This document shows positions 53,465 to 57,304 of a stretch of 64,000 nt of DNA, piece after piece (positions within the stretch are counted from its first letter, which is position 1; each line of letters begins with the position of its first letter). Below the pieces are notes generated by a model. That model was not told the origin of the DNA and did no database searches. It saw nothing but the letters and a program-made list of their open reading frames with translations. The DNA is taken from the NCBI RefSeq assembly GCF_024807655.1, contig NZ_JANUCR010000001.1, positions 372,001 through 436,000 of the forward strand, written 5' to 3'. Both the position numbers and the translations under genes were made by a program. The DNA is from Methanococcus voltae. Its GTDB lineage: Archaea > AGJL01 > Methanococci > Methanococcales > Methanococcaceae.

Positions 53465-54370
53465 TTATTGAGGCATTTCTTTAATTTCGGGTAAATTTTC
53501 GTTAGTAATTATATATATTGGTTTATTTAACTCTTTAAAACGTTCTAACAACAAATCCCTTCCCCAATTAGATAGTGCATAAATAGGTACGCTTTTTCCA
53601 GCCTGTACTTTTAAAACTTTTTTCAAATCTTCATCATTTTTCAATAAATTATAAAGACTCTTTGATGCACAACTTGCAATTAAGTCATATTCTGGAATTT
53701 CATCTTTATACTTATAGAAATCTACTCCTGTAGTATGTACTCCAAAAATACATATTTTTACAGGTTCTTTATCATTATGCTTTAAATTATAGTCTTTTTC
53801 TATTTGCCTTAGTTCATTTAATTGTTCAGGATATGCCACTGAAACGCCAATTTTCTTAAAACCCATTTCAATTGCCTTTAAAACACCTTTTACCTGGTCA
53901 ATTTCTGCAGTTTTTTCATCCAAAATAGCACCATTTGGATTTGCAATATTTACCCTTTCGATTACTTCTTTTATAGGAGTAGTTTGTACAATTCCAGATA
54001 TTCTGCCACATAAACCTTGAACTAAATAAGGATTTGGAGTTATTAAGGTCCCCGTACAATCACTAACGATTACCACCGCGTCTAACATTTTTTTACCCAG
54101 CGCAGTCATAAATATTTCAGAAGTTCCAAAACTAACAAATTGCTCTTTTTCTTCAATTACTCGGTCTTTTGTAAATAAACCAAAGCTTTGTATCCTAAAT
54201 TCAATATTTTTCTTAATTGTTTCTTCATTCAATTCTACTATATTTCTATGTTTTAAAAACAGAGGGCAAGTTTTTATTTCTGGTTTACTAATAGATATGA
54301 CCTTTCCATTTATTACGGTGATTTTTGCATTTCCTAAAGCTTCCATAATATGTATATCATTAGTTTTCAT
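53465..54370 (-). CDS. Methanogenesis marker protein 8 (DUF2099)
   Basis: A 301-residue protein of the DUF2099 family, found in methanogens and known as methanogenesis marker 8. Conserved segments are EALGNAKITVINGKV, FGTSEIFMTALGKKMLDAVVIVSDCTGTLITPNPYLVQGLCGRISG, and IFGVHTTGV followed by CASKSLYNLL. Function unknown, though presence across methanogens ties it to methanogenesis or methyl-coenzyme M reductase. GAGGAATAATATG gives the start. It lies at the left edge of the long region before hdrA. Confidence 0.85.
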   Translation of the reverse strand: MKTNDIHIMEALGNAKITVINGKVISISKPEIKTCPLFLKHRNIVELNEETIKKNIEFRIQSFGLFTKDRVIEEKEQFVSFGTSEIFMTALGKKMLDAVVIVSDCTGTLITPNPYLVQGLCGRISGIVQTTPIKEVIERVNIANPNGAILDEKTAEIDQVKGVLKAIEMGFKKIGVSVAYPEQLNELRQIEKDYNLKHNDKEPVKICIFGVHTTGVDFYKYKDEIPEYDLIASCASKSLYNLLKNDEDLKKVLKVQAGKSVPIYALSNWGRDLLLERFKELNKPIYIITNENLPEIKEMPQ

Positions 54371-54408: not shown

Positions 54409-54436
54409 ATAGATAGATAGATAGATAGATAGATAG
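54409..54436. repeat. ATAG microsatellite
   Basis: Seven perfect copies of ATAG, 39 bases upstream of the marker 8 gene's start on the minus strand. Copy-number change here would move promoter elements. Confidence 0.95.
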
Positions 54437-54660
54437 TTCTAATAATTTAACATATGCATCTTATAAGTTATAACCTATAATTTATAAGTTATAGCATATT
54501 TTAAAATTGTTAAACGTAATAATATTAAAAATAATATTAAAAATCTTTGATTTAAAACTCGTATTATATAAATTTGTATAAAATACGCAATTATATATAC
54601 AATTTAATGATTTGTAAATTAACTTAAAATAAAACTTCCCTAAAAATAGCTTTTATTAAT

Positions 54661-54780
54661 ATGAGGGGTGGGAATGGGATAGGAGATAAAAATATCTCCC
54701 ACACGGTGTTATCAGTAGTGATGAGGGGGTATGAGGGGGTTAAAAATATCACTACTATCCCGCACCGTGCATAACATTAG
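54661..54780. ncRNA. Candidate structured RNA upstream of hdrA
   Basis: A GC-rich island in a nearly all-A/T intergenic region. Perfect complementary segments: 54676-54682 with 54755-54761, 54682-54688 with 54693-54699, 54702-54708 with 54763-54769, 54714-54722 with 54748-54756, and 54707-54712 with 54771-54776. Some cross or compete. The 3' part can be drawn as an archaeal H/ACA guide: lower stem, pocket, upper stem, then an ATA box 14 bases from the upper stem. The apical loop holds a tandem ATGAGGGGGT. The strand and class are not settled. Confidence 0.5.
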
Positions 54781-54839
54781 TATTAATTACTCGTATATAT
54801 AATTTACTATGAATGTACATATATAAATTTAGTTTATAT

Positions 54840-54897
54840 ACTAACTAAATATACTAACTAAATATACTAACTAAATATACTAACTAAATATACTAAC
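54840..54897. repeat. 13-base tandem repeat ACTAACTAAATAT
   Basis: Four perfect copies of ACTAACTAAATAT and a partial fifth, about 60 bases after the GC-rich island and 430 bases upstream of hdrA. No spacers, so it is not a CRISPR. Confidence 0.95.
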
Positions 54898-55324: not shown

Positions 55325-57304
55325 ATGAGTGACCCCAAAGTGGGGGTTTTCGTTTGTTACTGTGGTTCTAATATCAACGGTGCAGTGGATTGTGAAGCAG
55401 TTAAGGACTTTGTTTCTAAACTCGATGGAGTTGTAGTTGCTGACACCTACCCTTTCATGTGTGCTGACCCTGGTCAAAATCTTATTAAAGATGCTATTAA
55501 AGAGCACGGGTTGGACAGAATTGTGGTAGCAGCATGTACTCCTAAAATCCACGAACCTACGTTTAGAGCTTGTTTATCAGAAGCAGGCATATCCCCATAT
55601 TATTTAGAGTTTGTGAACATAAGAGAGCACGATGCTTTCGTTCATATGAATGACGTAAAAGCTGCAACAGATAAAGCTAAAGAATTAATTGCAGCAGGTA
55701 TTGCGAGAGCTAAAAGACTTGAGGACGTACCTCAAAAAGTTGTGGATGTAGACAAGAGCTGTATGGTAATAGGTGCAGGTATTGCAGGTATCCAATCTGC
55801 ATTGGACCTTGCTGACCAAGGCTTTAAAGTATATCTTGTAGACAAAGACGAGTCAATCGGCGGAAGAATGGCACAATTAGCTAAAACTTTCCCAACCGAT
55901 GACTGCGCAATGTGAATTCTCGCACCGAAAATGGTTTCGGTGGCTAACCACCCTAACGTGGAATTATTGACTTACACAGAAGTTAAAGATATTGATGGAT
56001 ACATTGGTAACTTCAATGTAAAACTTGAGAAAAAAGCAAGATACATTGACGAAATTACCTGTACCGGTTGCGGTGCTTGTGCTGCAGTATGTCCTATAGA
56101 GATACCTAACGAATTTGATTTAGGTTTAGGTACCAGAAAAGCGATATACGTACCATTCCCACAAGCTGTACCTTTAGTATATACAATTGACATGGAACAC
56201 TGTATTAACTGTGAACTTTGTTCAAAAGTATGTGCTGCAAAAGCTGTAAGATATGACCAAAAACCTGAAGAAGTAGAAATTAAGGTTGGTACAATTATCA
56301 CAGCTACAGGGTACGATGAATTTGATGCTACACAAAAAGAAGAATACGGTTATGGAGTTTATGACAACGTTATCACAACCTTAGAAATTGAAAGGATGAT
56401 AAACCCAGCTGGTCCTACCGGCGGTCATGAAATCAGACCAAGTGATGGTAAACACCCTCACAGAACTGTATTTGTTCAGTGTGTTGGTTCAAGAGACGAG
56501 AAAGTGGGCAACCCATACTGTTCAAGAGTATGCTGTATGTTCGCACTCAAAAACGCTCAATTAATGAAAATGCACGACCCTAATGCAGAAGTGTACATTT
56601 GCTACATGGATATAAGAGCATTTGGTAAAGGCTATGAAGAATACTATAAAAGAGCACAAGAACAGTTCGGTGTTAGATTCATTAGAGGAAGACCTGCAAC
56701 TGTTATTGAAGACCCTGAAACTAAAAACTTAACCGTTAGAGTTGAAGATACGTTATTAGGCGAAATCTTAGAGATTGACGCTGACTTAGTTGTATTATCA
56801 GCTGGTTTAGTAGGTAAAAAGGAAACAAAAGACTTAGCTAAAATGATGGGCGTTGATGTAGGACCTGAAGGGTTCTTTAAAGAATCACACCCTAAGTTAG
56901 CTCCAGTTAACACAAAAGTTGACGGTATCGCAATTGCCGGAGTTGCACAAGGACCTAAGGATATTCCTGACACAGTAGCACAAGCAAAAGGTGCTGCAAG
57001 TGCTGTGGCTATCCCGATGTCACAAGGTAGCTTCAAAATTGAAATGATTAGAGCAACTGTTGACGAAGATGTATGTGGTGGATGTAAAGTATGTGCAATA
57101 ATGTGCCCATATAATGCAATTACATACGAGGAAAAAGAAGGTCATTTAGTGGCTATAACAGACGATGTTGCATGTAAAGGTTGTGGAGCATGTGCAGGTG
57201 CATGTCCAAGTGGTGCTATGCAGTTAAGATACTACAGAGACTCACAAATCTTAGATTCAATTGACGGAATGTTAGATGCAGCTAAAATGATTAATAACGA
57301 ATAA
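55325..57304 (+). CDS. hdrA: Heterodisulfide reductase subunit A, selenocysteine-containing
   Basis: FAD subunit of the CoM-S-S-CoB heterodisulfide reductase, where flavin-based electron bifurcation reduces ferredoxin. One 659-residue protein is read through UGA at 55913-55915 (Sec197), in DDCAMUILAPKM, where other HdrA proteins have Cys. Domains: N-terminal unit with FVCYCG, FAD motif VIGAGIAGIQSALDLADQG (about 152), and four [4Fe-4S] motifs, CTGCGACAAVC, CINCELCSKVC, CGGCKVCAIMC and CKGCGACAGAC. GGAGGTGAATCC precedes the ATG. Without Sec decoding it would look like two genes. No canonical SECIS is visible in its 3' UTR. Confidence 0.97.

Follow-up and report, generated by a model that had tools for sequence, protein, structure and literature searches.

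The locus

The window, a stretch of 64,000 nucleotides from Methanococcus voltae, contains a GC-rich patch in the intergenic region that separates the selenoprotein gene hdrA from a 301-aa gene on the opposite strand (Table 1). As the first-pass annotation had claimed, this patch stands out from its surroundings, with a G+C content of about 40% (54650-54799) versus 11-18% across most of the intergenic flank. The six perfect complementary words that had been reported from it are all exactly placed (GGGATAG at 54676, CTATCCC at 54755, CACGGTG at 54702, CACCGTG at 54763, TGTTAT at 54707, and ATAACA at 54771), and two longer complementary pairs are present within the patch as well, namely AGTAGTGAT at 54714 with ATCACTACT at 54748 and GGAGATA at 54682 with TATCTCC at 54693. 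The fold is better than expected by chance on either strand. Compared with dinucleotide shuffles, the patch reaches z-scores of -2.96 on the plus strand and -3.88 on the minus strand, and on each strand only one of 200 shuffles folds as well as the native sequence or better. The cleaner structure is that of the minus strand, on which two separate hairpin domains are formed. The 5' end of the RNA would be located near 54770 and its 3' end near a U-run at 54646-54642, the exact position of the 3' end being uncertain.

Table 1. Coordinates within the window of the putative RNA gene, its structural elements, and the neighbouring genes
Feature	Position	Strand	Remark
hdrA, selenoprotein, divergent neighbour	55325..57304	+	in-frame TGA at 55913-55915
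TATA box TTATATATA	54794..54802	-	starts 31-32 nt ahead of the first paired base
Proposed small-RNA gene	54640..54770	-	covariance-model homologues in 24/36 genomes, structure, covariation, promoter position
Conserved core of the RNA	54660-54771	-	about 110 nt
P1 5' arm GCACGGTGC	54762..54770	-	partner 54701-54709; both-side changes in 6/9 pairs
Internal-loop strand GGGAT	54757..54761	-	GGGAY in every copy
P2 5' arm AGTAGTGAT	54748..54756	-	partner 54714-54722; three pairs altered on both sides
C-rich P2 hairpin loop, CCCCCTCATACCCCC in the window	54723..54747	-	alignment, 19 distinct copies
P2 3' arm ATCACTACT	54714..54722	-	covariation
Internal-loop strand GATA	54710..54713	-	all homologues except two (GATG, GAGG)
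P1 3' arm ACACCGTGT	54701..54709	-	covariation
P3 hairpin GGAGATA-TTTT-TATCTCC	54681..54701	-	clear in Methanococcaceae
C-rich single-stranded tail ATCCCATTCCCACCCCTCATA	54660..54680	-	near-invariant in the 14 copies of family f1 (Methanococcaceae)
301-aa gene downstream of the RNA	53465..54370	-	neighbour not conserved across clades

Distribution in the Methanococcales

Homologues were collected by a DNA search of 22 genomes of the family, which gave 14 single matches, every one beside hdrA. The minus-strand alignment of these matches was turned into a covariance model comprising the helices P1, P2, and P3, and the model was then searched against the entire order. One copy each is found in 24 of the 36 Methanococcales genomes, in both families. 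The matches in the second family have E-values between 1e-7 and 1e-5, and the next-best matches are at chance level. Divergent copies were found neither at hdrA nor anywhere else in the genomes that had given no match. One of the homologues lies at C1:1129084-1129195 of genome G025, which we take to be M. jannaschii. Because the class and phylum levels comprise the same 36 genomes in the genome set used, the spread outside the order was judged by pattern search only. Such a search of public genomes resulted in four archaeal matches, titled Methanothermococcus and Methanococci, and none in viral contigs. Two bacterial matches outside the order have no P1 stem and were taken as chance.

Secondary structure and covariation

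Two invariant words, GGGAY and GATA, set the register of P1 and P2, and therefore no alignment choice enters into the pairing count. In 15 distinct arm sets, 256 of 270 cells of P1 and P2 are paired, compared with a mean of 207 and a maximum of 241 if whole arms are shuffled among the species. Considering all 19 distinct copies, pairing amounts to 97.2% versus 80.4% in the shuffled control and 21-63% after slides of the partners by one to three columns, and the covariation score is 0.473 versus 0.188 in the control. Nine of the 17 pairs in these two main helices have changed on both sides, and a single P1 pair is seen as A-U, C-G, G-C, G-U, and U-A. The helices have thus been kept across species by compensatory changes, and the proposal of a structured RNA at this place is borne out.

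P3 and the tail are not alike in the two families. In the Methanococcaceae, P3 occurs in several variants with intact pairing (GGGAGA/TCTCCC, AGGAGA/TCTCCT, AGAGG/CCTCT), and in the second family it is short or lost. The counterpart of the tail in the second family is the C-rich ACCCCTCCCCCACA, directly followed by a U-tract. The P2 loop varies in length among the 19 distinct copies and always retains its C-run. In general, conservation is concentrated in the GGGAY/GATA internal loop and in the C-runs, which belong to the best-conserved unpaired segments, while the sequence of the helices drifts freely.

The first-pass annotation had also suggested that some of the complementary words cross or compete. 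In all or nearly all copies, GUGGGA is present at the internal loop and UCCCAC or CCCCAC in the tail, so that a tertiary contact of the GGGATAG/CTATCCC kind is plausible on sequence grounds. Because neither side varies, this pairing is only a candidate. The pair TGTTAT/ATAACA, which had been part of the same suggestion, is not conserved because ATAACA is upstream of the inferred 5' end of the RNA.

Strand and promoter

All 24 homologues have a TATA-like box at -29 to -32 relative to the first base of P1, and in many of them a CGAAAA-like BRE is found immediately upstream. A BRE and a TATA box in such order are the usual archaeal promoter arrangement. As far as can be told from sequence, the RNA seems to have its own promoter at the right distance and on its own strand. 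The wobble pairs point to the same strand. In the 15 distinct arm sets, about 25 cells are G-U pairs if the RNA is read from the minus strand (A-C if read from the plus strand) and only about five the opposite way. The mean z-score of the fold across relatives is -4.10 for the minus strand and -1.57 for the plus strand. Because the G-U pairs, the z-scores, and the TATA box all favour the minus strand, the earlier plus-strand reading could not be upheld. We are thus highly confident that a real minus-strand small-RNA gene is present at this locus, and its transcription is probable. A published transcript from the locus was not found in the literature that was searched.

Genomic neighbourhood

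The first-pass annotation had placed the element upstream of a selenoprotein operon, and this position holds throughout: in each of the 23 carriers that could be checked, the RNA lies divergently upstream of an hdrA gene containing the in-frame TGA (in G031 the contig breaks here). The distance to hdrA is 193-554 nt, except for G005 and G006 with about 1030-1050 nt. In these two genomes, the RNA gene is separated from hdrA by an additional ORF of about 160 aa (L003 1817-2293), which by eye resembles glyoxalase/VOC proteins.

The RNA is dispensable for the operon, because eight genomes keep a Sec-hdrA without it and have other sequence upstream of hdrA. G001, which alone among the complete genomes has no tRNA-Sec above the cut-off, encodes only a Cys hdrA and has no RNA. 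The RNA is present in all 12 genomes that have both Sec and Cys hdrA versus 12 of the 20 with Sec hdrA only, a contrast that was found post hoc and ignores kinship.

On the other side of the RNA, most Methanococcaceae have a carS-like gene, the window's clade has one of a different family, and the second family has one for a putative membrane protein. The RNA could be the 5' leader, a riboswitch or attenuator, of this downstream gene, which follows on the same strand after roughly 100-650 nt, and long 5' UTRs have been reported to be common in methanogens (PMC6705878). However, the gene at this position is neither constant nor related among the clades, so that the RNA appears to be independent of it, and the U-tract after the RNA in the second family also argues against a leader. 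We regard this explanation as improbable.

Comparison with known RNA classes

Neither at gathering nor at permissive thresholds does any family of Rfam 15, the hgc families included, match the locus in the window or in its relatives. The resemblance to the H/ACA guide RNAs of archaea consists in the two stems and the internal pocket. The first-pass annotation had proposed such a guide on the plus strand, and in the window alone this strand indeed offers a two-stem pocket in which ATA is separated from the upper stem by 14 nt. However, the ANA box that is expected directly after the lower stem is conserved on neither strand. At its plus-strand position, ATA or AAA is found in eight of the 24 species, and the other 16 have AAT, ATC, AAC, AAG, TAA, GAA, CGC, or CAT. 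In addition, no H/ACA family of Rfam scores, and the promoter and the G-U pattern belong to the opposite strand. An H/ACA guide has therefore practically no chance of being the correct explanation. By inspection of the 19 distinct copies, no k-turn or k-loop is found in the upper stem, whose loops are the C-runs. Similarly, a box C/D RNA would carry a C box (RUGAUGA) towards its 5' end and a D box (CUGA) towards its 3' end. By inspection, no 5' C box was seen, and the sole CUGA that is conserved lies within the RNA, where P2 ends. Attempts to read the internal loop as a k-turn or a UAA/GAN motif were rejected because some copies do not conform. An archaeal SECIS element, which would be located in the UTR of the selenoprotein mRNA and on its strand, was rejected as well, since the RNA strand is opposite to hdrA in all assessable copies.

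Klein et al. reportedly screened M. jannaschii and P. furiosus for GC-rich noncoding RNA candidates in 2002, and the locus shares with these candidates the position in a GC-rich island of an AT-rich genome. The copy in M. jannaschii may already be among those candidates, because such a homologue would be hard to miss in a GC screen. Ten candidates were described for M. jannaschii (PMC7823788; see also PMC3432209); no hgc family of Rfam matches our locus. The sRNA162 and sRNA154 of Methanosarcina mazei are similar in being stand-alone small RNAs of a methanogen with proposed mRNA pairing. They belong to another order, however, sRNA154 homologues are not known in Methanococcales (PMC9765008), and in the present case the target is a proposal from sequence.

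The flpD RNA (RF01737) is also found near the same operon in Methanococcales, but this 47-nt element directly follows hdrA on the coding strand and differs from the new RNA in position, strand, and structure. Its matches in G025 (C1:1131452-1131497) and G004 (C1:1013910-1013956) are located between the hdrA stop codon and vhuD, where the SECIS of hdrA is expected. RF01737 may thus represent an archaeal SECIS rather than a control element of flpD.

Proposed function

The locus appears to define a new family of archaeal small RNAs with conserved C-rich single strands, perhaps regulators. The minus strand would carry a stand-alone gene for a noncoding RNA that has an archaeal promoter of its own, ends in a U-rich stretch, and diverges from the Sec-hdrA/vhu operon. 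The predicted RNA folds, in this order, into P1, the GGGAY/GATA internal loop, P2 with its C-rich loop, P3 in the Methanococcaceae, and the C-rich tail. The exposed C-runs would pair with ribosome-binding sites that are rich in G, in one mRNA or several, and because the neighbourhood is so persistent the hdrA/vhu operon would be the foremost candidate target. We give this explanation as a whole, a stand-alone minus-strand RNA that regulates by pairing of its C-runs, a probability of roughly 60%. What the sequences themselves reveal is the conservation, structure, strand, promoter position, and order-wide spread; the regulatory role is deduced from the C-runs, and the base-pairing mechanism, taken by itself, is put forward only tentatively. 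The pairing of the tail was compared with start regions, with shuffled tails as control, for 58 genes of the window and about 200 genes each sampled from G004 and G025. In the window, the start regions of the hdrA/vhu operon show better pairing to the tail than those of other genes (permutation p-value 0.006), whereas the operon does not stand out in the sample from G004 (0.40) and does so only weakly in that from G025 (0.087). The proposal does not rest on this comparison.

It could also be that the RNA is a stable component of an RNP that binds a protein or another RNA, for example as a scaffold, a sponge, or an undescribed type of guide, and does not pair with mRNAs. The conserved internal loop and C-runs combined with freely drifting helices are what is seen in RNP-type RNAs, but none of the 4227 Rfam families matches even at permissive thresholds, and k-turn, C/D, and ANA box signatures were not found. 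We consider this unlikely. A special case of the regulator with pairing C-runs would be a selenium-responsive RNA dedicated to the switch between Sec and Cys enzymes. This is supported by the Sec-hdrA adjoining the RNA in every assessable carrier, by the joint lack of tRNA-Sec and RNA in G001, and by the RNA being present in all genomes with both types of hdrA. In addition, the hdrAU-vhu operon of M. maripaludis is down by 3.4-4.3 log2 without selenium (PMC11097638). However, the Sec/Cys contrast is small in addition to its other limits, the shared neighbourhood may be inherited linkage, and eight Sec genomes manage without the RNA. A dedicated selenium regulator is thus rather unlikely. For the control RNA responding to selenium or H2 that had been considered in the first-pass annotation, the link to selenium is one of position; with G001 having neither tRNA-Sec nor the RNA, but the RNA also missing from the same eight genomes, this linkage is suggestive at most.

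In the most far-reaching reading, an order-wide RNA transcribed divergently from the promoter region of Sec-hdrA/vhu would link the energy metabolism of the methanogens to their selenium state, its C-rich strands tuning the translation of the Sec operon or of its Cys twins. We regard this as a long shot. If true, it would fill an unexplained part of the selenium response beside the repressor HrsM, the known regulator, which acts on the Cys genes in M. maripaludis (PMC11097638). If the RNA acts on the neighbouring operon at all, this would be relevant to the way in which methanogens exchange their selenium enzymes for sulfur enzymes and vice versa. To our knowledge, archaeal small RNAs with a conserved structure throughout an order are few, and we know of no regulatory example in the Methanococcales. 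Because the RNA is single-copy, has relatives in the genetically tractable genus Methanococcus, and is naturally absent from a set of species, its role is directly testable.

Minor sequence features near the RNA gene

At the loci of family f1, a second C-rich block (CCCCTCCCC-RTTCTATTTTA) is found 40-110 nt past the RNA core in most Methanococcaceae, preceded in Methanococcus species by AATTTACA. In the window's clade only this AATTTACA word has been retained of the downstream block. The block is similar to the C-rich tail ACCCCTCCCCCACA of the second family, so that the RNA may be longer in most Methanococcaceae; the block could mark where such a longer RNA really ends, or it could be an element of its own. 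The window also contains 4.8 perfect copies of the 13-base unit ATATACTAACTAA immediately ahead of the RNA promoter (54836-54897), and no such repeat was seen in the 62 nt that precede the RNA in its relatives. Seven perfect ATAG tetramers at 54409-54436, upstream of the 301-aa gene, possibly represent a hypermutable tract.
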